From assembly GCF_037975245.1 (NCBI RefSeq), contig NC_092562.1, forward strand, positions 21,655,054 to 21,719,053: a stretch of 64,000 nucleotides of DNA. The letters run 5' to 3'. The position numbers were made by a program, and so were the translations under genes. This document shows positions 14,736 through 47,205 of the stretch, piece after piece. Numbering within the stretch: the first letter of the stretch is position 1; every line of letters begins with the position of its first letter. The notes beneath the pieces are model-generated. The model did no database searches and was not told the origin of the DNA. It saw nothing but the letters and a program-made list of their open reading frames with translations. Origin of the DNA: Apostichopus japonicus (Eukaryota > Echinodermata > Holothuroidea > Aspidochirotida > Stichopodidae).

Positions 14736-14807
14736 GGGGTTGTAGCTCAGTGGGAGAGCGCGCGCTTCGCATGCGTGAGGCCCCGGGTTCAATCCCCGGC
14801 AACTCCA
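14736..14807 (+). tRNA. tRNA-Ala (anticodon CGC)
   Basis: A complete cloverleaf can be drawn. The acceptor stem GGGGTTG pairs with CAACTCC (one G-T wobble) and the discriminator base is A. The D arm is GCTC-AGTGGGA-GAGC. The anticodon stem CGCGC pairs with GCGTG around the loop TTCGCAT, which places CGC at the anticodon. The variable loop is AGGCC and the T arm is CCGGG-TTCAATC-CCCGG. Internal pol III promoters are present as an A box (TAGCTCAGTGGG) and a B box (GGTTCAATCCC). There is no intron, and CCA is not encoded, as expected for a nuclear animal gene. Confidence 0.95.
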
Positions 14808-17677: not shown

Positions 17678-17859
17678 TTATATCAATAATGATTCTCCTT
17701 GTCCATCCTCCTTGTCTGTTCCGATGTTCTGGTATGAATAAGCAGAGAACAGACGACCGGGACTCTTGACAGAATTGACCAAAGTCGGTTTTCTATTTGT
17801 CCACTCGATGAATGACTTGTACTTCATATACAAAGAGGATGATATCGAAACCGAGTCTC
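17678..17859 (-). CDS. NAGLU: NAGLU exon 19, terminal exon
   Basis: Begins [20 protein letters not shown], matching the human GDTVDLAKKIFLKYYPRW end. About 37 residues follow that have no counterpart in human NAGLU, ending GESLLI and TAA. Its acceptor and first 12 bases also form one edge of the 81-bp minisatellite. Confidence 0.88.
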
Positions 17860-20800
17860 CTGGATTGAGATAAACAAAAGAAATATTTGATTTTGAAGGG
17901 ATATTCCACACTGTGATGGTATGACTGTAATATAGATTACAATATTATTAAACTGAGTCTCCTAGGATAGGATGAGTGAAGGGATATTCTACACTGTGAT
18001 GGTACGACCTATATAGATTACAATATTAGTAAACTGAGTCTCCTAGGATGGGATGAGTGAAGGGATATTCTACACTGTGATGGTACGACCTATAGATTAC
18101 AATATTAGTAAGCTGAGTCCCTTAGGGTGGGATGAGTGAAGGGATATTCCACACTGTGATGGTACGACCTATATAGATTACAATATTAGTAAACTGAGTC
18201 TCCTAGGATGGGATGAGTGAAGGGATATTCTACACTGTGATGGTACGACCTATATAGATTACAATATTAGTAAACTGAGTCTCCTAGGATGGGATGAGTG
18301 AAGGGATATTCTACACTGTGATGGTACGACCTATATAGATTACAATATTAGTAAACTGAGTCTCCTAGGATGGGATGAGTGACGGGATATTCCACACTGT
18401 GATGGTACGACCTATATAGATTACAATATTAGTAAACTGAGTCTCCTAGGATGAGATGAGTGACGGGATATTCCACACTGTGATGGTCCGACCTATAGAT
18501 TACAATATTACAATCTGAGTCTCCTACGATGAGATGAACAAATGAAAGGTTTAATGGGATAGTCCACATTATGAACAGTGGATGATGTTATTGATAATTC
18601 ATATGATTGAATGCAAGATAGGAAATGCTAAATGCGACATTTCTACACTATCAAATACGAAAAATGTTATCAACTTCTCAATTGATTTTGATGCAAAAAA
18701 GAAATGCTAAACAGGTCACCATTACACTTTAAACTATGGATAGAAAATGATGGAACTGGCTAGGATTGGATGGGATGGGAAGCAAAAGAAGAAAATTTTG
18801 AAAGGTGCATTCTACAGTATAAACTAGGATGACAATAATGCTTAAGATTGGAAGCAAACGGGAAATATTCACAGCTCTGGTATTATATACTATAAACTAT
18901 TGATATGGATTCTTTTATTTCATAGTAATACCAAAATGACATGCTGTGTTTTAATTATCAGGGGGCTGATACAAACCTTGTGGAACAGTAGGGTACAAGT
19001 CCCTTGCAAATGTCCAGTTTGATTCCACCTGTAGACTCATGTTGTTGAAAGTTGTCCTGTCAAACTTGGTATGACTGTAAACACAATCCTGAATATAGTT
19101 AGCGAAAAGCCGCCATCTTGAGTAATAGTAACTGTAATTTTAAAGGAGCAACAAAAAAACAAACACAGTAAAAAATAATCATAATAATTGGGTAGGTCAA
19201 GTATAAACATAGCTATTAAATTTTAAGCTGACCAGACATTTTTTGCTTCAGCATTAGTTGTTGTAATACAATATCTGAAAGTAATAATCATAAAATTTAA
19301 AACATTTTGATGGTTAAAACAGATCTTGGTAGCTCTAGATATTTCTTGGATACTTTCAATTTTTCAATCAACCAATATTCTCTTGATTTCATATATACAA
19401 TGGAGAGCACACATAGATGTCTTCCAATGCCATGTGTTGTCGAGAAAGTTTGTTATACTGTTTTAACAATGTTATTTTGAGGCTAAAAGTCTTACGATTT
19501 CTCCACTGATTCTAGACTGAGAGCAGCAGATATCAATTACTACTGCGATAGTTAAACAGATTAAAATCTGTTAGGAGATGTCATTAAATGCTGTTATCAC
19601 CATCCATCCTCTCTGACCTGCAACACCCTTTTCAACATAACCTACCCTACACATATCCCAAAATCTGTATCGATACCTCATCGTTACATTCTACCAATCC
19701 CTACCTCCCCCTATACCCAACTGTCCCCTCTCCATAACCCCCACTCTCTCAATTAACCTACCCTCCAACGACACCTTCCATGCTTTTCAAAACTGCACCA
19801 TACTAATCATAACATTTTACGTTACACGACTGTTGAGTACTTTCATATCTTAACAGGATTTGTAACAATATCACTTTTATGTTTACAACATTATCATTGC
19901 TTCGGTTGGTACCTTTTAAGGGGTTCAAAAAGGAAGATAATAAAACCTTCCAAATTAAATCAAACAGCTAATACATATTTAAGCAAGGACACCAATCATT
20001 CAAATGTGCATGTTTTTTTCATTTCCCTACTTTCCAAAGAAAATTCAATGTTCTAGTATATTTACTTACCTTCCCAGCAGACCACCCCATTCCTTATTGC
20101 CGTAATCCAATATCTGACAAGAAGAAGAGATATACTGTCAGTCTTTTTACCAGTCTTTCTTAAGCCCTCCATGATCCTCCCCCCCTCCTCCCTCCCCCCA
20201 CAGAAAACCACTATTGAGATATCTACTGCCTTCCTATTCATCTTGTACAATTGACCTTCCACCCATATAAAGAAGACAAATCATAAACTCAATCACATTT
20301 GCTGGTACTATTAAAATCTTAATAACATAATATTTTTTAAATAATTTTGATAGTACTTCAACTTTATCCTGCACTAAAATTCTACTATGACGTACATAGC
20401 TCCTTAGCTTAGTGAGTCACGTTTTATTTCAAGCAATGAACCAAAGGTCAACCTTTTTGGGCATATCCCATTTTCATATCTGGTGAATATTTATGTAAGA
20501 AAAAGGTACGAGTGACGCAATGTTGAGCTACAAAGCAAATTCATTAATTACTTCCTCCTTCACCATTGTTTTTGGAATATTCTACAAGCTTGATTAATTG
20601 CAACTTAATGTTGAGTACAAAGTCCGAGGGGTTTGGCAAAATTGCCGGTGAAACTCTAAAAAAAAAGAGCTTCTTTTTCTGGTTAGAGTTTGATGTCATT
20701 CACACATTACCACTTCACTGCACTCCCAGAGTTGACAACCCTCTGACGTTACAAAAAAAAACACTGGTATATTTCTTATTTAATTGTGTGGTTAGACATA

Positions 20801-23800
20801 ACTTTTGCCATATAACATGTAACATTTTACTCACGTTGCCAGAGGGACCCCACAAAGTGATCTGGTTTCTTGCATTGTACTCGTAAAGTTTCTTCTCCTA
20901 TCAGACACAAAAATAATGACGATGTTTTAATTTTCCAATGAATGAATTAACAATACAGATACACTTACATCTAGTAACTGATGTTACGTAGAAGAACATC
21001 CAGAAACAATTCAAGGTAAACACAGCTATAGGCAAACCAGCATGGGTTTTCTCTTGCTGGAGTGGGCTTATGTGGACAAGGGCTCTGGGAATGGGCTCTA
21101 CTTGGGCACTCCCTGTGCAACACCTCTTAATTGCTCAATAAGGTTTCATGTAAAGCAGGAGGGGCTCTAGGTGATTTCCCCAGGTGGAGAGTAGTGCCAA
21201 GTCTGGGGCAGCCCTCAAGTCTGGGGCAACCCTCCCCCACCCCCCCGGGCTGAAGTCAAGCTATCCCCACCCCTATCTCCTGTTCCCTTGTTTTGTTTCT
21301 TCTATCTGCTTCCACCTGTTGTTTGGAACTGTCCAAATTGTTTTTGCTCACCCTATTAAATTTGATCCATTTACATATCATTATTAGTTTATCTGACAAT
21401 TTTTTCCAAACGAGAGAGAAATCATAACATTTTAACTCATAACAAACAACCAATTAGTTTTTTTACTTACATCATCATTCTTTCCTGCCCTCTTTGCTGC
21501 CTCCAGCCAATTACCCAGAAGCCATTTGGAATGAGATGAAGTAATATTGTCCATATCTTGTATAACTTCAAGAAGGCGTTCTCCATACACTCTACAGGAG
21601 AAATAAAACCAGAAAATGAAAACGTTCATAGTGTGGAAAGCCATACATGTAAATATTCATGAACTTGTGCACACCAAAATGAAGAGGAATTATCTATTGA
21701 ATAATGCTGCAACATGTAAAGGAGGTACCACGAATCAGTTATCATGTCTATTTAGTGACATAGTATACCAGAGAGCTGGTTGGCTTTGTGATTTCTTGCC
21801 ATTCAATGTGCTCAAAATTCAAAATAAATATCCGACTGATGTAGAGCTAAGTGAGTTCAATTTGTCCAAGAATTATAAAGTGAGAACCAGAAAAGATCAG
21901 AGATTTCCAGCTCTTATTTATAGCACTCCCTTGTTGGCATCAACCATTTCATTCACTGGTAATGATTTTACAGTATAGAATTTTTACTCCAAAATGTTTC
22001 AATATCCAGAGAGAACAGTCTTCCTATGTGAAATATAGACTCATAGATGTATGAATAAAAGGACAATTTCTTTTAAGAATTTTTAGCTGGCATATCAGCT
22101 CTGCTACCAACCATCCCTTTAATAACTGTTATTTATAAATGAGAGTTACATAACATTGTTTATACACTGTGAAATATTTTCACAACCTACTACCAAAAGC
22201 AAATGTCATCTAGTATAAATCACAGAGAAAATGGCCAATTTTGTGACCATTTGAGATAACCTATTTACCCCTTGAGCCAATTTTTGTACAATTTGAGATA
22301 ACCTGTTGACCCCTTGAAGCTGATCAGAGGGTGAAAACTGGTAAGAGCAGTTTGAGTGCAAGTTTAAAGCAAGACTATCAACTCTTTGAAGCAGATTTCA
22401 TTTCCTGGATGACTGTATGTGTTGTTAAAGTCCTATTGAGCCCCTTCACAAGACTAAACTGACCTGATTCACCAAAAGAAAATCATAGTATTGGAGAAAT
22501 CACAGATTAATTGAAGCTTTAAGTTTGGTGTTTATTTTTTTTTAATTTCATGTTTAAAAGGTTTTCAGACTTTGACACCTGTTGACCTCATCTGACAATG
22601 TGTGTTTGTTGAGATATCTTGTTTACAAGCTGATTTGGATCATTTCCCATCAGACATACAGTTGCAGAGATATGCACATTTTAAGATATTTAACATTAAG
22701 CCACGCCCACTCATTAATATTCACTGCAAATACTAATTGCAAAACCACATCCTCATAACATTTTGTTGGGCAAAATATATGAAGTTACTTGCATCTTCAA
22801 AGAGGAAAAAATTATTTCTTGTACAAAAATTTTGCATTTTGATGAAATTCTAAACACAGAGAACTTTGACAGCTAGGCAAACATTCCAAATGTATTGAAA
22901 TTTCAAGAATAAATCAACGAGAAGATAATAATAGAAAGTAAAGCTCTTGAAGAACATTTGCCGTGATGACATCACAGGCGACCTACTGTTCACCAATTCA
23001 GGTGAAGAATCGAGAGGGATTTCAGCCAGTCAAAATAGATTCCGTTCCTAGATATCAAGACGGGGTTGTCAACCAATAGTTTGGTATATTTTTCTTTGGC
23101 CATATATGTGTCAAATTGTCCGCAGCCGGATATCCCTTTCAGTAATAACATGGCTTACGGCATGATCCTGCTTGCAATATGGCTAATTTGATATCCACAG
23201 TTACACCTATTCAGAATAGTAACATTTCATAAATACTCAAGTTTAGCCCCTCATGTACTTACTTAACCTCGTCAAGGTTCCAATTGTCATAGGCTGCAGT
23301 TAAATTCTGATAACATTCTAAAGAGATATCGTGTAACACCTGCCTCGTTACATCCACCAAGTCATATCTGTTTTAAAAAAAAATTAAATGGTCAAATACT
23401 GCTTTAAACTTGATCTGTGACAAAATATACTTTAGAAATCATCACCTTTTTGTTACTTATGATATCTCTTTTATAATGAGCCATAACATCAGAATAATCT
23501 ACTTTTTCATCTCTCAATTATACTATTAAACAAAAAAAACTGATATTCTGACAATTGTTAATCTTAAAAGGGAATGTATTCCCTGTTAATAAGGAATTCC
23601 AAGACCTGGCGAGTCGAGGACTGGGTAAGGCCATGGGGTGGGGGGAGGGGGACAATTTATGTCACCATGACTACTTTGTGATATAATCATTTGTTAAGTA
23701 TTTTATGGAAATGAGAATAAATTGGTGTCCATTCAATGTTTCCTTGGGCTCCCCAACTGACCCCAGGACCTGTGGCTGCAGATCCTGTGATCTACCTAAC

Positions 23801-26800
23801 AGAAGGTTGCAATGTATTACATATTCGAAATGTGTCTTCAATAGCTTGTGAGTTCTCACATGGTGCATATGGCTAGTGTGTATGCACACACAGATACATA
23901 CATACAAACAAACACTAACATTATTAATCTAATAAACTAAAACAAAGGACATTTTCCTTTGTCTCTGTCAACTTGAAGTTCTTTTTAAGAATGTGACCAA
24001 CTCTATTTCATTGTTTGGAAGAGATTTATTTATCTAACAACATTTCAACCCATCTTATGTTATATTTGAATGATTTTGAAATATTGACCAAAGGTGAACA
24101 GGCAACGTAAGCTGTTCATTGTTGTATGAATATAATGTTAGGGTAAGATTGCAAGTTCAAATATGGTCTCAAAGTTAATGCTGCAGGAATGTAACATGGC
24201 GTCCTTCTGCAAAATGCTCGCTTCTACACGAGCTAAAACGATTAGTTAACAAGAGTGCATTTCCTGACAACCCTGTTGTTGTGGGACGGTCAAATCTTGT
24301 TCTTATATTTTGTCAATTCTGACCTGAAGAGGTCACTTCCGCTGCACTGGTTTTCTGCCCTCAACAATGACTTCCATGCTTTACCGACGCTCCTCCAGTC
24401 ATACCAGACCTTAAGATGGAAGTTAAAACAGGTTTGTTTAAAATGATGTTAAATCGTTCATCATCATAAACACCAACAATAACTTTTTGGTGATAAAAAT
24501 AACAACAGTCGTTACTTCCTACAAGAATTAATTCTCAAAAGTTCAAAAGGCAATCAATTCATCAATTCACTTTAAAAAAAAAATATATATTTAAAACAGG
24601 TAACAATTCCTGTCCTGGACAGTATCTTACTTCTATTTATTTAAAACAAAAAGCAGCATACAGTTGATCAGAAAAAAACTGACAGATCACAGATAGCAAC
24701 CAGACTAAACTGTAGATACTTACGTTTGGAGCAAGTTTAAGGCTGGGTCTCTGTACAGGTATGCCATGGTTATGGTCGCTATGCGTATCCAAGCAGTTGT
24801 AAATGGTGGTGGATAGTAATTGCCAAGCATCGTTAATGTCCTCGTTGCTGACACCATAGCGATTCCTCGAATAATTCCCGACCCTAGCGATGACAAGATG
24901 AAGATGATAATCCAGATAGAAATAGAAATCATAATAATAATTATAATAATAAAAATAGAAATTCCAGAATAGAATAATAAAAATAGAAATTCCAGAAAAA
25001 CCAAATTTTACAATCAGTGATTACTAGTTAACATTGAATAATGACATACCAAACTGTAAGTGGGTTCTCTATCAAAGGGGGAGGAGCTAAAATTACCCTT
25101 TATTGTAAGAAATATCATTAAAGAGTAAATTTTTTTTCACTTTTTGAGTGGTAAATAATATATCACCTGGCTTTGCATAAGGTTGAACAATACCGTTACA
25201 CTACTCTAAACAAAAGTAATTCTTTAATTCCATCAGAGAAGCTGATGACTCATTAAAAAATCGGCTTTGCGATATTGGTACTAACGTAATGATAATGATA
25301 AAAACCCATCCATTTTATCTGATATTGAAGGGCTGCTGCCTGACTTTACAAATTTAAGAAAACCTCATACCTTGCCAAAATAAAGAATACAAACGTTCTT
25401 CTACTTTAAACACCATTCTTGCAATCTCAATTCAAACAGACACAATTGAACCTTACTTTGGTTGCTTAAATAATTACCCTTACATAACATATTAATGGCT
25501 AATGTGGGTTTTTTTTTTATGTTGTTTTAATACTCCATTTAATGAATATCTTTCATAATTTTAAATGGAATGCAAAAGAACAAGTAACAATAACTCAGCA
25601 AATAATTAACGCAATCACAACAAACGTATGAACAAGAACCTTTTCAAGTGTTTAAACAATCTTGCACAATTCATAGATATTTATCTCCATTCAACAAACC
25701 CAAGCATTCTATTTACCTAATTCTTTCTTGCTTAGTTTAAAATTAGATTTTGATTGAGATCCTCAAAATGGAATGCGAGAGTGGAAAAGAAAATACACAT
25801 TTCAACTGTTTTATATAGATATTCAACAGTTTATATAAATATTCAATAGTCTATATAAATATTCAGTAGTCTTTATAAATATTCAGTTCATACCATTCAG
25901 GAACATTCAGATGGTCACCTCTAAATGTAAGGCTATTGAAGAAGTTATAGATGAAATCATTCTGTTCTATTCCTTCTGGAGTGGTTCCCATGCCAACCAT
26001 TGTACTACCTTCAAAGAGCATAGCTTCAAACGGACCCTGTCGACGATGAAAAGAATATTCTACATGACGGATCCATACTGTGGTCAATATTTATCCCCAG
26101 GGTTGATCATAAAATAGAGGTGTTGATGAACCCCATAAGGTCAATCGGGGTTACATTAAGATTTTCGGTTCAGAGCTGACAACCAAAACACAAAAATTAC
26201 AATGACTTTCATCACTTACAAATAAAACTCACAAATCTCCAACCAATCATGAATAGATTTGTTAATGTTCATCAGGCAGATCCATTTATACTGATGATTG
26301 TCTTCAAACTGGAAATTGGGATCTCAAAACCACAGTTCTTGCATTCCAAAAGATGATATTCTGTGAAATGAGCAAACTCTGTTTCACCCTCAGCAAATTT
26401 TTACCTTGTTAACTGCATCCATCCTTCCATACAATCCATGATTTCCACCAAAATTATGCAGCATACACCAGATGAACGGTTGTCCATAAAACGATTTGGT
26501 TGACAGGTAGATAGGGACAGTCTCTGCGGCCAAGTCCAAGACGATCATCCGACCCTTCGAGATACAAGAAGTAAATTACTCTTGAAAAATGATCAGATTC
26601 GACTCAGCCTACACCCTTGGTAGATTTACTTCATCAAGACAATCTTCTACCCTTCAAGATACAAGAAGTAAATTACTCTTGCAAAATGATCAGATTCGAC
26701 TCAGCCTACACCCTTGGTAGATTTACTTCATCAAGACAATCTTCTACCCTTCAAGATACAAGAAGTAAATTACTCTTGAAAAATGATCAGATTCGACTCA

Positions 26801-29800
26801 GCCTACACCCTTGGTAGATTTACTTCATCAAGACAATCTTCCACCCTTCAAGATACAAGAAGTAAATTACTCTTGAAAATGATCAGATTCGACTCAGCCT
26901 ACACCCTTGGTAGATTTACTTCATCAAGACAATCTTCTACCCTTCAAGATACAAGAAGTAAATTACTCTTGAAAATGATCAGATTCGACTCAGCCTACAC
27001 CCTTGGTAGATTTACTTCATCAAGACAATCTTCTACCCTTCAAGATACAAGAAGTAAATTACTCTTGAAAATGATCAGATTCGACTCAGCCTACACCCTT
27101 TGTAGATTTAATTCATCAAGACAATCTTCCAACCCTTCAAGATACAAGAAGTAAATTACTCTTGAAAATGATCAGATTCAAGTCAGCCTACACCCTTTGT
27201 AGATTTAATTCATCAAGACAATCTTCCAACCCTTCAAGATACAAGAAGTAAATTACTCTTGAAAATGATCAGATTCAAGTCAGCCTACACCCTTTGTAGA
27301 TTTAATTCATCAAGACAATCTTCCAACCCTTCAAGATACAAGAAGTAAATTACTCTTGAAAATGATCAGATTCGACTCAGCCTACACCCTTTGTAGATTT
27401 AATTCATCAAGACAATCTTCTACCCTTCGAGATACAAGAAGTAAATTACTCTTGAAAATGATCAGATTCAACTCAGCCTTCACCTTTGTAGATTTACTTC
27501 ATCAAGACAATCTTCCACCCTTCGAGATACAAGAAGAAAATTACTCTTGAAAATGATCAGATTCAACTCAGCCTACACCCTTGGTAGATTTAATTCATCA
27601 AGACAATCTTCCAACCCTTCAAGATACAAGAAGTAAATTACTCTTGAAAATGATCAGATTCAACTCAGCCTACACCCTTTGTAGATTTAATTCATCAAGA
27701 CAATCTTCTACCCTTCGAGATACAAGAAGTAAATTACTCTTGAAAATGATCAGATTCGACTCAGCCTACACCTTTGTAGATTTACTTCATCAAGACAATC
27801 TTCTAACCCTTCAAGATACAAGAAGTAAATTACTCTTGAAAATGATCAGATTCAACTCAGCCTACACCTTTGTAGATTTACTTCATCAAGACAATCTTCC
27901 AACCCTTCGAGATACAAGAAGAAAATTACTCTTGAAAATGATCAGATTCAACTCAGCCTACACCTTTGTAGATTTACTTCATCAAGACAGTCATCCGACC
28001 ATTCGAGATACAAGAAGTAAATTACTCTTGAAAAATGATCAGATTCAACTCAGCCTACACCCTTTGCAGATTTACTTCATCAAGACAATCTTCCAACCCT
28101 TCAAGATAAATTTCTCTTGAAAATGATCAGATTCAACTCAGCCTACCTACACCTTTGTAGAGTTACTTCCTGAATAAAATGACACAAACAGACAGCATCT
28201 TAACATGAACAAATTGCTAATGCCAAATACAGCATAAAAAATTTGCAAAACTAAATGGAAAAAGTAGAAGTAACTTCCAAGTAGAACGTTGAAATTTATG
28301 TTGTATTTATATCCATCCTTAATTCTCTTCATGAGGATCACAAAAACTAATCATTTTTCATGAGATGTAAACCGACTATTGTGTGAAAAATAGTGCGGTG
28401 TGGGTAATATAGCATAGTACTCGGTCAAAAGATGGAATTTAAACTTCCTGACAGAAGATGTGTTTAACAAAGCTACCTAGAGAATAAATTTACATGTAGG
28501 GCAAACTGAGTAGCTTGTAACCTCAACATAAAAAACATGTGGCAATCAACCTGAAAGCTAAACCTCCTTTGGTTTATTTCCCCTCAAGTTGGAAGAGACT
28601 TTCCTTTGGGCCAAAACTTGTTGATTGCTCCTAAATGAAAAAAACAAGCCACCTTGCTATAGCCAGCCATTGATGGAACTCAACCTGTTCCAGGGAATAA
28701 TTTAAGTCTTCAAATTTTGTGTAGCATTTTTGAAGGCACTGAACTTTGTCTTTTATAAAAACTATGGTGCCTGTCTAGCAACAACTGCTATACATCTGTG
28801 GACTTGTATAGCAACTTCACCACTTTTTGTAGCAATTTGCGATGATTCGATGCTGAATTAATTAGTCACCGTGTGCCATAAATTGTATTGCTTCTAAAGC
28901 CTGCAGCTTTCATAAAATTCAACCATATATCGTCTGACATTCTGTATGGTACTACCACAACCATCTTTTGACTAAGTGGTCGAACTGGGCTCGTATTTGG
29001 ATGTTTACCTCTGGGACTGCTTGAAGGAGAGCCTTTATCTGCAGCTGGCCCCAGAACGGAGATCTGAATAACCAGCCCTGCATCAGCCAAACAGCTTTAG
29101 AGTCGTACATGGTCATTCCTTTGAAGACACCCGCGCTGACATTTCTCAGGTAGGAGGGGTCACTAGAAATATGGAAATTAAATTGGTTAATTGGTAGACA
29201 AGCTTAAACCTCTCCAATCACAACCCCGAGGTGATTGGATATTATCATTGCTTGTTACAGTCTTGTGACATTACAAACTAAAATTAATTACTTGAAAATA
29301 ACTCATTATTTATTGGGGAAAAAATAATATATACACTCCTAAAGTGTGAAGTTTATGAAAGATTTGACTAGTTTGAAGCAGACCTTTAGGTAATGTTTGA
29401 TACTTTAGTACAACTACTAAACCTTTAGATACATTTTTTTATGTAACTACTTACAATTATTTATCCAAAATACCCTCTTTCTCAACTCAACCCTCCCCCC
29501 CCACACCTTTTCTTCTAAGCCCAATGTCTCAAAATTATTGAGATATCTTACCTTGATACAGGAGTCATCTCATTAAAGGTATCAGCATTATAGATATGAT
29601 CCAGATCGCCATACTCTTCCTCTTGCTAACATACAAAAACAGAAGAAACCAATAAAATTTACACCCAACTACTTGTTTTTGCTGATGGGGTGAAACAGTT
29701 CAGTTATTAAAGGAAGCATCGTACCATGCTCCAAGTGTCAAAGGAACTCATCAAATGAGGTTACATGGACCATTCACTACTAGAGAATGGGGGAGGGGAG

Positions 29801-32800
29801 GGGGAGGAGGAGGGATGTTGTTCACAGCCACAGCTGCATTCAGCTGGATATTATGTGTTAGCAAGCAGAGTGCCAGACATTAAAATGTTAAGTTTACTTA
29901 CAAATGCCTAATAATCCTAGACTTATCTTGGAAAATATACAAAAACTGGATAATACACATGATATAATACACCTGAAGTAATACATGGTATAATCTTGCA
30001 GAAAGACAGTACAAGACTGCTAAATTGCCTGCTTAAAATTGCCTCTTGGTGTACCTAACAAAAGTAATGTTCAAGGATAGGCCCCAAATCAGCCTGCCAC
30101 CTATCTCCTCCCACTGTTTGGAAAGTTACTGTGTCACTCCCACATATCACAATGTAAAGCTGGCATGGCTCACAAATTCACAGGATGACACAATAATACA
30201 CAAAGATTATAAAAATCGTTTGGGCTGCATTCCTCATGTATGTACCCTTTACAACGATGGGCATGAAAACCCAAACAACCAGAAAGCTTTCAATAATACA
30301 CAATGATTATAATAAACATTTGGGATGCATACCTAATGTACGTACCGTTTAGAGAAAGATAGGTGATGGGCACAAAAACTCAAACAACTTATAATCCATT
30401 CTCAAACCCAGTACCCCTTAGACTGAGACTGAGACTGTAACCATGTGATCTCGACAGGGAATTGATACTACACAGGACCAAGACTTACATATACACCACA
30501 ATAGATTTATATTGTAACATGTGGAAACAGCAACTACGAAATTTCTATAAAAGCCTATCCGTCTAATAATCTACCTGAAAGAACATTGTGTTATATAATA
30601 TACAATTAACTAATTAGCATGCTTTACCATTTTAATAAATGCTGCTCCAACCGTCTTGAATAGAGGATCCGTGGGGTCCAGGAAATACGTGCTGGAAGAG
30701 AAAACAACAGAAAACCATGACGACATACATTCCTGGTCTCACAATTAAAAGTGACAATAAAGAGGAACCACTCTCGAAGAACAATTCTGTTATTTGTCAG
30801 AATGGACAAATATTACAACAAAACATGAAAAACTTCTCGGTGTCACACATTAAGAAGGAGAATTAAAACACCATCAATCAGGCAAGACCAGCGTTTAATA
30901 CCTAACCTTTTCTGCTACTCGAACCCCTATGCAGCTGAATAAAACCCTTGTGCACCCACTTCACTAGCTGTGGATGAATGGTTTGTGCATCAAGTTGTTG
31001 GTTATACCTATGGCTTTGTTTCCCATTCAGTGCTGTCTCACCCCCCACCCCCCCCCCTCAGAGGGTTAAGGGTTTAAGAACCACTGGGCTAGACTAATAA
31101 ACAACAATAAAATTAATGTCATGTCAGTAAATTATGAGGCAATGCTTTATAGTCAACATATACAAACAACAAGCACACACTCTTTGGCTTATGGCCCTAT
31201 ACCCTTAAAATATTTGCATAGAGGAGCAGAGGAAAGTAACCACTTTAAAACAGAGGAATTCAAGGTGATAAGGTCTTGTTTACTGTTTGGTCAGAATATT
31301 TTAGTGACACAGAGCAGCCGATAAGATTGTTTTCCATTTTAGTTTTTGGTCGAATGAAATCAAGAAACCTTGTACATGTTAAATTCCCAGATATGTTTTC
31401 AAAAATGATAAGATATGTCTCAGAAATCATCACACAAGTTTATTTTTTTTGTAACTTACCAGCTAAGATTGCAAGTAAAGTGGCCCCAGGGTGATAACTG
31501 GCTGACATGTGCATTTGGAAACACTCTGTAGAAGTAAAAATGAAAAACGACATCAAAAAGACAGGAAAATATGTTAAGTATATAACAACAGTGCTCAGTA
31601 AATAAGATCCTTTAACTCACAAGTGGTGCAAACCATGGCCTGCAAATTCACTGCAGCCCCTACAAGGTTTCAAATCTCTGTTATTGCGACCTGCAGCATG
31701 TTATGGCAAAAGGAAATCAGTTTAGTGAGTGTGTATCTAGCTGCCAAGGTCCTGCTTCTGACAGGTTTTGTCAACATAACAGATGAACGATGTGCCTCTA
31801 AAAGCTTCTGATCTTTTACTCCACCATATAATGTGAGATTCTCATTTCACAAGAGTTAGGTATATTCCCCAAGTGATTTGGCCTGCGAATTGGGTACAAC
31901 ATTTCTATGTTGCCCGCGAGATCTTTTTAATGCCCATCCCTGCTTTTAAGCGATTCAATATTAGTTCTAGATACTGTATATGCTACAAAGTAAAAAATGG
32001 TAACCTAAAGTCAAACTTTGGCAAGGTGTTCTTCTAATATGACACTTTCAAATACCACTCTAAGATATTTTATCACCTAGTTTGGTCAAACGTCCCTAAA
32101 GAAGTCAGAAAAATACATATCCAAATACCACTCTCGGATATTCCAATCCCGTAATTTGGTCAAAACATTCCTAAAGAAGTTAGAAAAATTCCCGATGGTG
32201 ACAAACTCATGGACATGGACCCTGTTGCAAAGGATATTTAAATAATCCAAAGATGCAGCAAATTTATTAATTTCATTTGGGGGGTGGGAGTGGGGTAAGG
32301 GGTTGGGTAAGCCGAGTCTTAAAACACAAGATATGAAAGAATGAATGGCAGACCGTTTGAATCCTCCTGGGACATGACCAGCGAATCCAGGAAGGACAGG
32401 AATCATTCCAAAAGATTTCATTCGGCGCAGAATCTGTTTCTGAAGAGCCAAGTCAGAATCAAGCCAAGACTGAGGGAGGGGACCTCCCCAGGACCTGATA
32501 TTACCCATTCTTGCCCTGTATACGAGAATAAACAATGGAAAGAAGGAAAAAAAAACTAAATATATATCATTCTGAGTTTCTGAGTCAACATCAAAGCATG
32601 GAAATTGCAAGTTTGATCTCAAAAGGAGCCATTAAAACATTTTAAAGGACATAATCTATAAAACTGTAATACAATACTGTTACAAAAACCTAACCTGTAC
32701 TAAATTTTTGTCTTTCTTGAAAGAATATGATGACTTAAAGTCACTCTTGAATATTCATGATCCTCATAATACAGTAAACCTTAGTTTATTCGGACCTCTC

Positions 32801-35800
32801 TCTTCCTGATCTTATATTATCTCAATCTAATATCGCACCATCCAGTACTGTATAATAATGCACATCAATCGTCACTAAGGCATTGTGTTAAAAGTCTGAG
32901 GCTGAGGGGGCTGCAGCATCACTGCAGCTATTCTGTGCAGGACATAATCCTTTATGCTCTTCAGGCTTCACACAATATGCCCTGCTGCTGGTCTGCAGAA
33001 ATAATTTTTATTGCTTGACATCTAGAATCAGCCTAGCTGAAGCTTTCCTTTTTGACACAGTGACTAATCAAATTGTACAATGATTGACATTCTCCTAACT
33101 TTACAGCACAAAATGGCACAGAGTAAATGCTGACACACTTTAGAGTGCTGTATATTTACACTTTGTGAAACACACTGTTTTTTATGCAAGGCCCATTAAA
33201 ATAACAAAGTATCCTCTAGTATAGGAATCTAGAGTATCCAGATATCTCTCTTCTCAACATTTCTACTACATCCAGGTTTTTACCATTTTACCATACATTT
33301 ACCATAGGTTTACCATAGGTTTACCATAGGTTTACCATACCATACGTTCTGACACACTCAAGTATGCTATGCATTCAATCAATTAAAAAGTATTGCCAAC
33401 TCTGAATTACAGATTTTTGTCTAATCTGTCAAACTTTTGATAGTTTCAATACAACACTACATCTTAAATAGTCCTTCTTTGACTAATGAAGCCCAAAATG
33501 CTAATTAATTACTGTTCCCTGATTTATTAGTTGGAGATGTGAACAGCTATCATACCAGGCAAGAAATGCAGGACCTCCAAAGTGTTTGTCCAAATCCTCC
33601 TGAGTAAGCCCCATCTTGAGGTAGACCTTCTGCCAAATAGCTTCTTGACCATTGAATGCTAGTGGTAAATTGAAACCATTCAGGGCCATCCAATCAATCT
33701 CCTGTTCCCAGCGAGTCCAGTTCCACCAGGTGAACGAATAGCTGGCTGTACAGACGTTCTGATAGTACCTGAATCTGTGTTTGATAACCCAATATTTGAA
33801 GGAATCAATGGCTGCCAGATTATGTGACACTATAGTCACAGGAAGGCAAACAATTTTGTCAGAGAACTGGTAGAACAGCCTTAAGGGGAAGGAGAGATTC
33901 GTTCACAAGTTACCTGCCATCCACAACAACGAGCTAACCACCTCCCCCCCCCCCGCCCTCCCCAACTTCACCTATTCTTAGCGAAAATTGTAATACCAAC
34001 ATTAGGAACAGTGTTCAATACTGATACAGAAGGATTGGTTCAAAAGTAAAAACATAAAAGCTAAGTAAATGTATTAATAAGTCATAAAAATAACTACAAA
34101 TTCCTCCCTCTCCTCCCAAATGAAACCATGTTGTTACATATCCCAGCTTGCAGTGCAATAAATCAGTGGCGGCGGAACCGGGGGGGCTTGGGGGGGCTCA
34201 GCCCCCCCAATGAAAAAGTTGAGGGGGCAAATGCATGATAAGCCCCCCCAATATTTACCAAGGCTCCGAAACGTGCATCTGCCCATTTTTCAATGCATAC
34301 TTGTCGATCTGTCCGATGCACACGTATACTATATAGGTGTAATAATTTTAGTAATTGCTGGGGGACCCTGGTCCCTCGGCCCGTCCCCTGGCTATAGACC
34401 ACATTGTCACCCCAACCGCGTCTTCACACCCCGTGAAAAGTGGAAGCAGTGAGTGTGAGTACCGGTAAGCGTAACACAACTTCGTCTTAGGCCAATGACT
34501 TGCCTCATTTCAGCCAGTTCTCCAACATCCCCTTACTTAGTGGCGGAGCGTCCATATATACAGTCAGGGGCGGATTCCCCCCCCCCCCTCCTGACGGACT
34601 CAAATGGACTGCTGGCGCCCTTTTCAGCTTTTCACTACTTTTAACTTATTCGCGATTATTGACTATTTTATTGCGCTCTCATATACCTATTGACATTTGT
34701 CATATTCTGTTGGTGTAATTTTCCGACAAAATGGCGACGACACCTATTTATTCTCCGTTTATCTGCAAATTAGCAAGGCCCGGAAAGGGTCATTTCCTGC
34801 AATCTAGGGAGTAACTTATACTCAAAAAATTTCTGTACGCTCCGCGCCAACCTGTGGTGGCGCTCCGCTTAGATAGTGTCGAAAGCGCCCATACAGACCA
34901 TTCTTGCCCCCCCCCGACCAATTCCCCTAGCTCCGCCACTGCCCTTGCTACACTCAAAAACGTCTTTGCGAGTACACTACGAGTAATAGCTACTCTCTTA
35001 AAACACCATCGAATATACAAGTTACAATGTTTTTACAGACTTTTACGTGCAATCTGAGAAATTGCAGGCTTGAGACCCATATTTTAGGGCTAGGTATTCA
35101 CAGCATAAAACACTCGGGAAGTGCCGTTTCCGGCCATCTGGGGGTTTGAAAAAAACCCAAAATTTTCTTGTACGCTCCGCGCCAACCAATGGTGGCGCTC
35201 CGCTTAGATAGTCTCCACACATTAGCCCCCCCAATAATTTTTCCGTTCCGCCACGCCTGCAATAAATAGTAGAAACAGAAGCACTATATGTGAATGTGAC
35301 ACTAGTCTGTAACACAAGGGTCGCAAGAAACAAAGGGCAAATTATTGCCAGAACTTCTGCTAGTAAAAACCTTCCTCCACACGTTACCTTTGAGGACTTG
35401 TGACGTTAACCTGACCAGATTTGATGACAGGAAGCTTGCCAGGATCTGGAAGATGTATTCGATTCCCTGACCATGAAATGTGCCCTCCGAATAAGTCGGT
35501 CAAGACATAGTAAAAGCCACGTGCTGCAGCTACTCCGGTATTAGCTTTGATGGAGATCGTTGAGCCATTTGAAGTTACCTTTTAGTATCAAACATGAATA
35601 TTCATTAGTATAACAATCCCCTCCTTAAAAGGTGTGAAGACTCGCCCACAAAGAAACATTTTATGCCGGTAATCTGATCTAGTTTCGAATGAGGTGTAAC
35701 AGAAGTGTTAGACACCACCATCGATACGAGAAAATACACACGCAGCTTGCTACCGTAGGTAATTAGACACTAATGTACAGTCAGTACATACAGCTGCGGT

Positions 35801-37453
35801 CAATACCCACAGCATGGTGTATAAACGATACAGCGATGGACATCTCAGGTCCAGCTAAAGATAACAAGGTATCACATTTCATTACTGTCTGCATTTTGTA
35901 GCGACATGAACAAAACGTCACTTGCAAGCAACAGAAAGTTAACTTTTTCAGATAGCCGCATGCCGTTTGGGGTGAGTCTTCAATGCCTTTAACAAGTCGA
36001 TGAATCATGTAGCCATTACATGCTACAATTAAAGATCTGACACAATCTAGAATATGTGCAGCTGGACAGAGAATATAGCAATGTGATGTGATATATGTTC
36101 TTGGTGGTTAGGACTGTAAAGTTAAAATGTCTATAAAGATCTTCAATATTGGTAGTAAAGCTGTTTATTGAATTCTGAACATGGATGACCATTATCTGAC
36201 TTTTCTAGCATATTTTGGAGTAATGCTGATGCCTGTAAAAGCTTGATTTTTGTACATTGTGGAAGAGAGAAAAACTGATGGATTCTCTGTAAAAGTAGTC
36301 CCAATATACAGATGCCATCATTACTTCTAGCTAATCTAAGATCTCAATGACACAATTAGCTACCTCACCTACACCCCAACGCCCACCCCCAACCACCACC
36401 CTTCCTTGTTACTGACTCCTCCACCGTCACAATGCATTTAAACAAAGAAGAATCAGATAATTAGCCTACACAGACTCACAAAATTGGTCCGCTCTAACTT
36501 TCCACCCTTAACTCCTCCATATGCCCCCGCATGTACTCCCTTCCTTTCCCCTGTCCCTCCCTCCTCCCTTCAAGGAAAAAGGCAACATCTAGTCTAACAC
36601 AGTAAGCATACATGGTCTCATATGACTATGACAATGTTCCTAACCTCGTAGTTGTCTAAATATGAAGAATTAGTAAGGGTTACTGCGACATCAAACTCTG
36701 CAGCTCGCTTCCCTACAAAACGTTGGATGAGCAGTTTGACTGCATCAGCTTGATCAGCTGCAGGTGTTTTACTCCGCAGAACATCCAATGCAGGAAACTC
36801 TACAGAATAGTGAAAACAATAGAAAGTAGCCAATAAAAAAACATGTTTACTTCTGAATAGGTAGAGCTCTGTGTTTCTTAACATTCACCAAACAGTTTCA
36901 CTCCTGGCTTTAGCTAGCCACCTGTATCGTAGTCTGTTAAATGACATAACCACGAATAGATGAAGTAGGAAAGTGTCTGGATACTTGGATATATACAGTG
37001 GAAGTGCATGAAATAAGTCTAGGCCTACATGCACTGAGAAGGGCGGATCGGTGGAAAGGTGTCTTAAATTCATTAATAGATTACAAACAAGGTTCTAGTG
37101 TTACAAATATGTGAAGTACATTAAATGTTCTTGCTTTTGTTAGGTATCCCTCAAGTAGTGCACATAAACCCACTCACTTCAATCCCACCCCCCCTCCATC
37201 CCCCCCTCCCCATTCTACTTCTAGCTTAAACACTGAATGGAAAGGAATACCTGTTAGTATCTTTAACATATTGGCACCAATCTTTTCATCCAGTTTAGAG
37301 AAGTTATAGATAATGGTTGATATTTGAGTATGGTCACTGTTGGTAAATCAGACACCGAGTTTGACCTAACTACCCTAGGGCTACGTTATACCAACCTTTT
37401 CCATGGAGAACAGGAACAGCTGTCATACACAAGAAGAAGAGTAACATGTACAT
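17678..37453 (-). CDS. NAGLU: Alpha-N-acetylglucosaminidase (NAGLU), 19 exons, complete
   Basis: A GH89 lysosomal hydrolase that removes terminal alpha-linked N-acetylglucosamine from heparan sulfate. The joined coding sequence is 2352 bases, or 783 residues; human NAGLU has 743. Exons 5' to 3': 37396-37453, 36645-36799, 35388-35578, 33556-33774, 32354-32515, 31460-31525, 30628-30691, 29552-29625, 29009-29162, 26405-26554, 25894-26036, 24724-24883, 24324-24409, 23263-23367, 21471-21591, 20835-20897, 20070-20113, 18977-19131, 17678-17859. All junctions are GT-AG and keep frame. A signal peptide covers residues 1 to about 18. The N-terminal domain runs to about 135, a TIM barrel to about 480, and the helical C-terminal domain follows. 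The catalytic glutamates of the family (human E316 and E446) correspond to E324 in NADTFNEM and E452 in TPEG. Several N-glycosylation sequons are visible, as expected for a lysosomal protein. The human gene has 6 exons, so this one is far more divided. Exon limits are hand-called and can be off by a few bases. Confidence 0.95.
17852..18560. repeat. Minisatellite, ~81-bp unit x8, at NAGLU exon 19 acceptor
   Basis: Copies begin at CTGAGTCTC in 17953, 18034, 18113, 18194, 18275, 18356, 18437 and 18514, so the period is mostly 81 bp. A proximal, more diverged copy starts at 17852 and overlaps the true acceptor of exon 19. On the minus strand each copy reads CCTAG/GAGACTCAGTTT, while the real junction reads CCAG/GAGACTCGGTTT. 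Degenerate fragments continue to about 18900. The array is intronic and upstream of the exon in the transcript. Confidence 0.95.
18977..19131 (-). CDS. NAGLU: NAGLU exon 18, C-terminal domain
   Basis: Encodes [20 protein letters not shown] then [17 protein letters not shown]. YYxxRWRLF is a family motif. The donor CAAG/GTTTGT opens the intron that holds the 81-bp array. Confidence 0.92.
20070..20113 (-). CDS. NAGLU: NAGLU exon 17, C-terminal domain
   Basis: A 44-base exon encoding [14 protein letters not shown], matching the human ILDYANKQLAGL block. The acceptor is TTGTCAG and the donor AG/GTAAGT. Confidence 0.92.
20835..20897 (-). CDS. NAGLU: NAGLU exon 16, C-terminal domain
   Basis: A 21-codon exon encoding [20 protein letters not shown] plus N. 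The motif NxRxQxTLWGP is conserved in GH89. Both splice sites are in phase 0. Confidence 0.92.
21471..21591 (-). CDS. NAGLU: NAGLU exon 15, C-terminal domain
   Basis: Encodes [15 protein letters not shown] then [16 protein letters not shown], matching the family's FLLGSWLEQA block. The donor is GAT/GTAAGT. Confidence 0.93.
22240..22322. repeat. Two-copy tandem repeat in NAGLU intron 14
   Basis: The block TTTGAGATAACCTRTTKACC followed by CCTTGA occurs twice about 50 bp apart. It is a simple local duplication. Confidence 0.75.
22555..22690 (+). repeat. Single copy of the TGACCT-rich repeat
   Basis: GTTTTCAGACTTTGACACC, then TTGACCTCATCTGAC and GAGATATCTTGTTTACAAGC, follow the same order as the units at 12184-13048. 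It lies in NAGLU intron 14. Confidence 0.6.
23263..23367 (-). CDS. NAGLU: NAGLU exon 14, C-terminal domain
   Basis: Encodes [20 protein letters not shown] and DNWNLDEVK, matching the human YDLLDLTRQ motif. The donor used is AA/GTAAGT. Confidence 0.92.
23648..23790 (+). repeat. Dispersed repeat family C, copy 2
   Basis: Contains TTAAGTATTTTATGGAAATG, AATAAA, CTTGGGCTCCCCAACTGACC and a GATCCTG end. The same order is seen at 52495-52660. It lies in NAGLU intron 13. Confidence 0.5.
24324..24409 (-). CDS. NAGLU: NAGLU exon 13, C-terminal domain
   Basis: Encodes [20 protein letters not shown] then CSGSDLFR. It fills the WYN...AWRLLL region of the family. It was found by reading the reverse strand between exons 12 and 14, and its phases (0 in, 2 out) fit both neighbours. 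Confidence 0.9.
24724..24883 (-). CDS. NAGLU: NAGLU exon 12, C-terminal domain
   Basis: Encodes [29 protein letters not shown] and RPSLKLAPN, matching the human RRYGV and RRPSL blocks. The donor is AAC/GTAAGT, phase 0. Confidence 0.93.
24944..24998. repeat. Two-copy 28-bp repeat near NAGLU exon 12
   Basis: AATAATAAAAATAGAAATTC followed by CAGA occurs twice in direct orientation, about 60 to 110 bases upstream of the exon 12 acceptor in the transcript. It extends the intron's pyrimidine-rich minus strand. Confidence 0.7.
25811..25888. repeat. ~20-bp tandem array at NAGLU exon 11 donor
   Basis: Four units of AGTYTWTATAAATATTCARY stop within about five bases of the exon 11 donor at 25893. Unlike the two long arrays, the unit does not contain the splice site itself. 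Confidence 0.85.
25894..26036 (-). CDS. NAGLU: NAGLU exon 11, second catalytic glutamate
   Basis: Encodes [20 protein letters not shown] then [13 protein letters not shown]. The glutamate after TTP is residue 452 and corresponds to human E446. The donor GAATG/GTATGA is followed within a few bases by a 20-bp tandem array. Confidence 0.94.
26405..26554 (-). CDS. NAGLU: NAGLU exon 10, catalytic barrel
   Basis: Encodes [16 protein letters not shown] and [20 protein letters not shown]. Its acceptor TATCTCGAAG is the last unit of the minisatellite at 26540-28165, and the first 19 bases of the exon are part of the repeated unit. Confidence 0.94.
26540..28165. repeat. Minisatellite, ~96-bp unit x17, at NAGLU exon 10 acceptor
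   Basis: GATCAGATTC recurs at 26591, 26688, 26785, 26881, 26977, 27073, 27170, 27267, 27364, 27460, 27555, 27652, 27748, 27844, 27940, 28037 and 28125, so units are 95-97 bp except the last interval. The proximal edge overlaps the first 15 or more bases of exon 10. On the minus strand the units read TATCTTGAAG/GGT, copying the real acceptor TATCTCGAAG/GGT. Each unit also has an internal inverted repeat, TTTACTTC and GAAGTAAA about 42 bases apart. Long plus-strand open frames here (26783-27154, 27581-28120) arise only because 96 is a multiple of three. Confidence 0.97.
29009..29162 (-). CDS. NAGLU: NAGLU exon 9, catalytic barrel
   Basis: Encodes [16 protein letters not shown] and [16 protein letters not shown], then ALLQAVPE. 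The motif WLMQGWLF is diagnostic of GH89. The donor GAG/GTAAAC opens the intron that holds the 96-bp array. Confidence 0.94.
29552..29625 (-). CDS. NAGLU: NAGLU exon 8, first catalytic glutamate
   Basis: Encodes [18 protein letters not shown]. The glutamate of NEM is residue 324 and corresponds to human E316, a catalytic residue of GH89. The acceptor TTAG is poor, but the donor AG/GTAAGA is strong. Confidence 0.93.
30189..30390. repeat. Two-copy ~102-bp tandem duplication in NAGLU intron 7
   Basis: AATAATACACAAAGATTATA, then TTTGGGCTGCAT and TGTATGTACC, recur about 102 bp further on with changes, along with ATGGGCA and AACCCAAACAAC-like blocks. It lies within the intron between exons 7 and 8. 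Confidence 0.75.
30628..30691 (-). CDS. NAGLU: NAGLU exon 7, catalytic barrel
   Basis: Encodes [20 protein letters not shown] and ends on ATG/GTAAAG in phase 0. It matches the family's LxPxDPxF block. Confidence 0.92.
31460..31525 (-). CDS. NAGLU: NAGLU exon 6, catalytic barrel
   Basis: Encodes [20 protein letters not shown] between CTTCTACAG and the strong donor TG/GTAAGT. The WGHF motif is typical of the family. Confidence 0.9.
32354..32515 (-). CDS. NAGLU: NAGLU exon 5, catalytic barrel
   Basis: Encodes [17 protein letters not shown] and [18 protein letters not shown]. The donor is the weak AAACG/GTCTGC, called because joining to exon 6 restores the codon CGA and the family's RVFP motif. 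Reading through instead leaves the family and reaches a stop. Confidence 0.88.
33274..33340. repeat. 11-bp tandem repeat in NAGLU intron 4
   Basis: About five copies of TTTACCATAGG, the first two diverged. Simple local repeat. Confidence 0.85.
33556..33774 (-). CDS. NAGLU: NAGLU exon 4, start of the catalytic barrel
   Basis: Encodes [29 protein letters not shown]-like [18 protein letters not shown] and [15 protein letters not shown], then GPAFLAW. These are the best conserved GH89 blocks. The donor GCCTG/GTATGA splits the TGG codon. Confidence 0.95.
34164..35259 (+). mobile_element. Non-autonomous hAT-like transposon in NAGLU intron 3
   Basis: Terminal inverted repeats CAGTGGCGGCGGAAC (left) and CAGGCGTGGCGGAAC (right end read on the minus strand) are flanked by a perfect 8-bp target duplication CAATAAAT (34156-34163 and 35260-35267). 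An 8-bp duplication and CAG...CTG termini are the signature of the hAT superfamily. GGGGGGGCT blocks occur inside each end. No transposase frame is present, so it depended on another copy. A second element is nested at 34538-34941. A conserved module ends about 47 bp before the right terminus (35109-35212). Confidence 0.9.
34538..34941 (+). mobile_element. Nested hAT-like element
   Basis: Inserted inside the element at 34164-35259. The ends are TAGTGGCGGAG and CTCCGCCACTG, with a near-perfect 8-bp target duplication CCCTTACT (34530-34537) and CCCTTGCT (34942-34949). It carries its own copy of the subterminal TACGCTCCGCGCCAACC module (34773-34876). It is 404 bp long and has no coding capacity. 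Confidence 0.8.
35388..35578 (-). CDS. NAGLU: NAGLU exon 3, N-terminal domain
   Basis: Encodes residues 72-134, including [20 protein letters not shown] and [14 protein letters not shown], which match the family's STGVAAA and WSG motifs. It ends in phase 2 at CAAAG/GTAACG. Confidence 0.93.
36645..36799 (-). CDS. NAGLU: NAGLU exon 2, N-terminal domain
   Basis: Encodes residues 20-71, running EFPALDV ... [18 protein letters not shown] ... NSSYLDNYE. This is the mature amino terminus; NSS is a glycosylation sequon. The acceptor is CTGTAG and the donor GAG/GTTAGG. Confidence 0.9.
37396..37453 (-). CDS. NAGLU: NAGLU exon 1, signal peptide
   Basis: Starts [19 protein letters not shown], a short hydrophobic signal peptide. 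The donor is AAAG followed by GTTGGT, phase 1. A second in-frame ATG two codons in (37447-37445) is an alternative start. An acceptor-like CTTCTTCTCCACAG ends at 37499, so an upstream 5' untranslated exon is possible. Confidence 0.85.
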
Positions 37454-40528: not shown

Positions 40529-40702
40529 ATGACAAAGACACAATATTTGATATTCCTTTGTGGAATGGCAAACTTTATAAATGCAGCTGACCGAGTTATT
40601 ATGCCGATTGCCATCGTACCTATGTCAGATCTTTACGACTGGGATCTTAAACTCCAAGGATGGATCTTGAGTGCGTTTGCCTATGGCTACATCAGCAGTC
40701 AG
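40529..40702 (+). CDS. SLC17-like exon 1
   Basis: Encodes residues 1-58, starting MTKTQYLIFLCGMANFI and ending GWILSAFAYGYISSQ before GTTAGA. It covers helices 1 and part of 2. An upstream acceptor-like TTTACAG at 40505-40511 leaves room for an earlier coding exon. Confidence 0.85.
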
Positions 40703-46454: not shown

Positions 46455-46677
46455 CTGGATTCTTCTTTAACCTTTTTTTTTATTGAAGGATAAGTCGATA
46501 GCGAAACTCACCGTAACTTGAGTGTCTCAGCTATGGTTATATTTCAGAAAAGATAAAAGTGCTTTGGAATGTTGATGGCAGAGAGCAAAGCACTGCAGGG
46601 GCCATCCTATCCATCATTGGGTAGTGCTAGCTTGGATGCTATGTCCTTGAAAGTTCACTTTTTGACAACTTTGAAAT

Positions 46678-47205
46678 ATGAGTGCCATAAACTACATATA
46701 TGAGTACCATAACCTACATGTGTGAGTACCACAACCTACATATAGGAGTACCACAAACTACATGTATGAGTACCATAACCTACATGTATGAGTACCATAA
46801 CCTACATATATTAGTACCATAACCTACATATATGAGTACCATAACATACATGTATGAGTATCATAACCTACATGTATTAGTACCATAACCTACATGTGTG
46901 AGTACCACAACCTACATATAGGCGTACCACAAACTACATGTATGAGTATCATAACCTACATAAATGAGTACCACAACCTACATATATGAGTACCATAACC
47001 TACATGTATGAGTACCAACACCTACATATATGAGTACCATAACCTACATGTATGAGTACCATAACCTACATGTATGAGTACCACAACCTACATGTATGAG
47101 TACCATAACCTACATGTATGAGTACCATAACCTACATATGTGAGTACCAAAAACCTTCATATTTATATGAAGCATATGAATTTATAACCTACATGCATTA
47201 GTATC
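46678..47205. repeat. 22-bp minisatellite, TATGAGTACCATAACCTACATG
   Basis: About 22 copies of a 22-bp unit alternating ATG-TATGAGTACC and ATA-TATGAGTACC variants. The copies degrade after about 47150. It begins about 550 bases after the transporter stop codon and 220 after its candidate poly(A) signal. Confidence 0.95.

Follow-up and report, generated by a model that had tools for sequence, protein, structure and literature searches.

A minisatellite in a sea cucumber NAGLU gene copies the splice acceptor of the last exon

Minisatellites that repeat an intron-exon border in tandem within the intron itself have been described in lancelets under the name of 'mirages' (PMC3087553, PMC3902484; published work is cited here and below from excerpts of the papers). 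In lancelet BflGb6, the 3' end of the intron and the 5' part of exon 2 are duplicated, with six units in one haplotype and three in the other, and the units at the cluster boundary are excluded from homogenisation (PMC3087553). Adh3 and other lancelet loci are cited as mirages in the same paper, and PGBD5 and TnC were added later (PMC3902484). According to the authors, RT-PCR and the Adh3 data suggest normal splicing in lancelets (PMC3087553). In potato RdRp, an intron was gained via a duplication crossing the border of intron 1 and exon 2 (PMC4974935). In human ABCA7, a VNTR in intron 18 includes the exon 18 donor, and one isoform retains a single unit; skipping of exon 19 rises with VNTR expansion, whereas retention of the unit is unaffected by length (PMC5954066). 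No echinoderm border-copying array was found among the matches listed from the open-licence literature, judged by title and the start of the abstract. Here we describe two arrays of this kind in one gene of the sea cucumber Apostichopus japonicus.

The window, that is, the whole stretch of DNA analysed, is 64,000 nucleotides long and carries a NAGLU gene on its minus strand. The parts of the gene that matter here are as follows.

17678..37453, minus strand: NAGLU gene, coding part (37453-17678 in reading direction); 19 exons read from the sequence, forming a single open frame of 783 aa
17678..17859, minus strand: NAGLU exon 19, the last exon, ending in TAA; gene model, with a tail equal to that of A. 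japonicus protein P0001 except for one residue
18977..19131, minus strand: NAGLU exon 18; gene model
26405..26554, minus strand: NAGLU exon 10; gene model

The model matches human NAGLU (4xwh; 2.6e-229), with model residues 34-738 aligned. Among the best 120 of 2967 matches, its top relative is A. japonicus NAGLU (93%) and the second is that of Holothuria leucospilota (72%). With the exon 9 stretch set aside, the protein of the window differs from P0001 at six residues (216, 398, 400, 497, 551, and 746), which by itself would place the window in A. japonicus or a very close relative and not in a lancelet. P0001 is without much of window exon 9 (29162-29009) and has other residues there, which is perhaps an annotation fault. 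This deposited A. japonicus NAGLU, itself a predicted protein, contains the true starts of both exon 10 and exon 19. Two exons of the model have poor signals and fit the protein: exon 4 (33774) has a poor acceptor, scoring 0.4 in the smoothed model described below, and exon 5 (32354) has a poor donor, GTCTGC, scoring 1.7.

In intron 18, TRF places an array at 17894-18537 with a period of 81, 8.0 copies, and 94% matches. Alignment of the copies puts the array end at 17848; the TRF call ends early, at 17894, since the last copy is 21 bases longer than the inner copies. On the minus strand the array continues through the true exon 19 acceptor and 12 bases of exon 19. Its copies, numbered u1 to u9 in reading direction, were read from one haplotype, and the start of the degraded first copy, near 18600, was set by hand and is approximate.

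17848..18601, minus strand: 81-bp acceptor-copying array, eight decoys and the copy with the true acceptor; TRF, direct reading and alignment, outer end approximate
18512..18601, minus strand: copy u1, 5' edge, degraded; identity to the others 63-68%, with the long U-rich stretch largely kept
17950..18511, minus strand: inner copies u2-u8; 78-81 bases, 90-100% mutually identical, without the ~21 bases of pyrimidine tract found in u9
17848..17949, minus strand: copy u9, 3' edge, with the true exon 19 acceptor and 12 exon bases; total length 102 bases and, gaps aside, 83-85% identity with u2-u8

Eight decoy acceptors and the true site were read directly, confirming an earlier description of this array in the first-pass annotation as a copy of the exon 19 acceptor with about 12 exon bases. 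The first exon-like bases of the decoys lie at 18523, 18445, 18364, 18283, 18202, 18120, 18042, and 17961, and that of the true exon at 17859. Six of the eight decoys read TAG/GAGACTCAGTTT, the first reads CGTAG/GAGACTCAGATT, the sixth reads CCTAAG/GGACTCAGCTT, and the true acceptor reads CCAG/GAGACTCGGTTT; the splice-site AG is kept in all eight decoys. The copies follow one another in order, and nine acceptors in register are no coincidence.

The two ends of the array differ from its interior. Both edge copies, u1 and u9, have a long U-rich stretch that is absent from the seven inner copies, u2-u8. u9 aligns lengthwise with the inner copies with one main gap of ~21 bases. The local alignment of u1 with u9 covers the pyrimidine tract and the acceptor and contains a six-base gap besides two gaps of one base. 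It scores 41, whereas the best of 1000 single-base shuffles reached 28. u1 is a mosaic: over its final 26 bases it agrees with inner copy u3 at 23 positions (score 37). The array shows concerted evolution inside, with divergent copies at its edges. Fourteen bases of exon 18, TTACAGTCATACCA (19080-19067), are repeated exactly in u9 (17930-17917) and in no other copy, with an E of 0.018 within the window; this match is perhaps due to chance.

These features lead us to regard the array, with good confidence, as a mirage-type minisatellite that arose from a border-spanning duplication, lost its U-rich tract inside and spread, and whose copies are most likely silent. One tandem duplication would have taken in the acceptor, with the end of intron 18 before it and ~12 bases of exon 19 after it. 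Coding and splicing selection would have continued to act on the outermost copy, which holds the true acceptor, and the upstream copies would have turned into intron, free to change. About 21 bases of the U-rich tract may have been lost from one inner copy, and unequal exchange or slippage may then have spread the shortened 81-bp unit, so that the two edge copies now stand apart from the rest. Since both edges carry the long U-rich stretch, the simplest history is a long, border-crossing ancestral unit, followed by inner loss and spread of the short unit; we infer this order of events from the copies themselves.

A second array lies in intron 9 of the same gene.

26537..28169, minus strand: 97-bp array of 17 copies (TRF count 17.0), which extends 18 bases into exon 10; TRF, gene model, pattern search

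Its unit is unrelated to the 81-bp unit, with an alignment score of 14 on either strand and a shuffled median of 14; the two arrays have a like architecture and unrelated units, as had been noticed earlier. The splice-site AG is present in 15 of the 16 intron 9 decoys; the exception, at 28000, reads AT. This second copy of the array (27983-28000), whose own acceptor reads AT, retains exon-like GGTCGGATGA, which is absent from the other decoys. Edge divergence in this array was judged by eye. One of the 18 pattern matches in the search for the array, at 26008 in exon 11, was dropped as unrelated. In the rest of the window, no match longer than 14 bases (12-14) was found to the 81-bp unit, the 97-bp unit, or u9. 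A 75-bp unit is repeated 1.9 times in intron 5 (32049-32189) and touches no exon.

How do these arrays compare with the systems described before? The intron 18 repeat crosses the border and takes in the real splice site, with the array reaching 17848 and exon 19 starting from 17859, and both NAGLU arrays have many copies with the splice-site AG. Like the amphioxus mirages (BflGb6, BflGb9, Adh3, TnC, and PGBD5), as far as these are described in the excerpts, they consist of border copies in an intron, with many cryptic splice signals and edge units that are not homogenised. BflGb6 also shares the acceptor side and the edge pattern of intron 18, in which inner copies are alike and edges divergent (PMC3087553). 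Unlike the amphioxus mirages, the NAGLU arrays belong to another phylum, the echinoderms, occur twice in one gene, and include, in intron 18, a loss of the U-rich tract that is common to the inner copies. Their units of 81 and 97 bp compare with 150-160 bp in BflGb6 and 10-72 bp in Adh3, and their copy numbers exceed the three or six units of BflGb6, by the figures in the excerpts. The duplicated piece in potato RdRp likewise has a putative branch site, a pyrimidine tract, an acceptor, and an exon start; the new intron is spliced there, whereas NAGLU has no known new intron in use (PMC4974935). The ABCA7 VNTR also includes a real splice site, with a unit beginning with its copy, but has a 25-bp unit, lies on the donor side, is polymorphic, and has measured splicing changes (PMC5954066). 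Human internal tandem repeats at exon-intron borders are border minisatellites too, which can give alternative splicing and new introns, but they are located in genes of young segmental duplications and have transcript support (PMC2812944, excerpt). The NAGLU arrays therefore belong to the known mirage class, to which they add a species, a second phylum, evidence from the edge copies on the sequence of events, and a contrast between U-poor and full-strength decoys.

The first-pass annotation took two independent births in one gene as a sign of a shared mechanism. If exon edges were subject to a process of their own, such as breakage or slippage there, such arrays would be commoner than randomly placed minisatellites. 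The window holds only two TRF arrays with a period of at least 50 and at least three copies, and both end inside exons of NAGLU, which speaks for such a process. When each array was slid within its own intron (that of intron 18 taken as 18601-17847, with up to 20 exon bases allowed), an acceptor-side overlap of 1-20 exon bases had a probability of 0.050 for intron 18 and 0.023 for intron 9; for an overlap on either side the values are 0.099 and 0.046. The product of these probabilities is ~0.001 to 0.005, a post hoc figure that assumes independence. The like architecture of several lancelet genes points the same way (PMC3087553, PMC3902484, excerpts). However, two arrays are a small sample, and the test was devised with both already in view. 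Part of the pattern would follow from selection against arrays that extend further into coding sequence, and neither the 81-bp nor the 97-bp array touches a donor. With the sliding values post hoc, we consider a border-specific birth mechanism unlikely.

Copies of single borders were also searched within 1500 bases of each site, with a null of 1500 probes taken from the window after six named repeat zones had been set aside; this is a blunt single-probe test. Among the 18 NAGLU acceptors, only those of exon 10 (score 91) and exon 19 (34, p = 0.026) stand out at p < 0.05. Among the 18 donors, exon 11 (34, p = 0.026) and exon 5 (29, p = 0.038) pass the same threshold, and neither match is a copied border. 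The exon 5 match covers 27 bases, lies close to the exon 4 acceptor, and is probably due to chance among 36 tests. The exon 11 match comes from a 20-bp array of 3.7 copies in intron 11 (25812-25885), which starts 9 bases from the donor. We rejected it as a donor-side mirage, although its score equals that of exon 19, since the exon tail has no homology (shuffle p = 0.33); it lends a border-specific process no donor-side case.

A second alternative concerns the fate of the copies in mRNA. If the decoys were used, a share of transcripts would join exon 18 to a decoy and encode a NAGLU of 728 aa, and copy number would tune that share. A stop codon in the last exon in principle escapes junction-dependent decay, and such transcripts would escape decay in this way. 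The earlier annotation predicted GDSVY followed by TAA and a loss of about 59 residues. The predicted GDSVY-stop holds for five of the eight decoys (728 aa); one would end in GDSV-stop (727 aa), so that six of eight give one or the other, and two would give a 754-aa product. The loss has to be corrected, as the common product is 55 residues shorter than the 783-aa protein. All 16 intron 9 decoys are predicted to stop early, at 382-389 aa.

The strength of the decoys was scored with two acceptor models based on 16 other NAGLU acceptors, that is, on one gene, with exons 10 and 19 excluded from training and with intronic AG sites outside the two arrays as background (863 for the position-specific matrix). 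In the position-specific matrix, the true exon 19 site scores 4.19, u6 slightly higher at 4.93, and the other seven decoys -4.92 to 1.41; built from 16 sites, this matrix seems overfitted. The smoothed model, which we prefer, was built after that result was known. In it, the true site scores 12.2, u1, the best decoy, 9.0, and the seven inner copies 4.5-6.9, corresponding to percentiles of 100, 99.4, and 90.2-96.5 among background AG sites. T counts at -45..-5 are 19 at the true site, 17 in u1, and 10-12 in the inner copies. In a yTnAy scan for branch sites, the true site has only TTTAT at -12, u1 has TTCAT at -20, and five of the seven inner copies have TTCAC at -16 or -17, so that the scan gives the true site no advantage over the decoys. 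Donor scoring covered three array units, with best scores of 0.5 (one inner intron 18 unit), 1.1 (u9), and 2.7 (one intron 9 unit); 18 real donors score 1.7-11.9, and the intron 9 unit falls within their weak end. Overall, signal scoring of the intron 18 decoys against the true site is mixed.

The score of u1 in the smoothed model, that of u6 in the matrix, branch-like motifs no worse than at the true site, and the predicted stops could all be read in favour of decoy use, as could the one-unit retention isoform from the human ABCA7 VNTR that holds a donor (PMC5954066, excerpt). But no decoy reaches the smoothed-model score of the true exon 19 acceptor, and the deposited A. japonicus protein, a predicted one, has the true exon 19. 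The ABCA7 retention isoform was constant with VNTR length, and only exon 19 skipping varied (PMC5954066), and lancelet mirages are reported without splicing disturbance (PMC3087553, PMC3902484), both according to the excerpts. In addition, the part that would be lost includes residues aligned to human NAGLU, where the alignment reaches 738, and for this reason a short NAGLU may be unstable. With the true exon 10 and exon 19 starts both in the predicted protein and the signal scores mixed, a truncated NAGLU from decoy use is possible but unsupported, and it seems to us quite improbable.

In exon definition, a last exon is defined from its downstream end and the nearest good acceptor is taken. 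For this reason, the intron 18 copies are most likely silent in mRNA, and the poorer U-tract of the inner copies possibly helps. In intron 9, 14 of the 16 decoys score 8.5-10.1 in the smoothed model, and the true exon 10 site scores 8.5. The decoys there are not weaker than the true site, so sequence strength cannot explain the choice, and silence would depend on exon definition by itself.

That the acceptor likeness is due to chance, or to a mobile element that happened to end at the acceptor, is barely credible: the TRF end at 17894 does fall short of the acceptor and exon 19 reaches only p = 0.026 in the single-probe test, but u9 aligns over its length with one main gap of ~21 bases, and neither unit was matched over more than 12-14 bases in the rest of the window, to which the search was confined.

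The two arrays offer a contrast within one gene: the decoys preceding the last exon are U-poor, those preceding internal exon 10 are of full strength. Should the pattern prove general, it would mean that amplification of intron-exon borders has happened time and again outside lancelets. New introns could form from such material, and the arrays would be a natural test of how the spliceosome chooses among near-identical acceptors. As a speculation to which we give little weight, arrays that copy an acceptor might be a widespread class among sea cucumbers, and perhaps among other deuterostomes besides lancelets; at sites of weak exon definition, such as a last exon, spread might be open only to units with a weakened acceptor. 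In intron 18, the U-rich tract lost ahead of amplification would then be the trace left by such selection.

Elsewhere in the window, a plus-strand gene for an MFS-type transporter starts near 40529. One of its exons matches Pfam MFS_1, the single match in a Pfam scan of eight other stretches of the window. Downstream of its stop (~46123, placed by eye) lies a 22-bp array of 21.5 copies (46677-47149). A tRNA-Ala (CGC) match on the plus strand at 14736-14807 is a candidate gene or part of a repeat.
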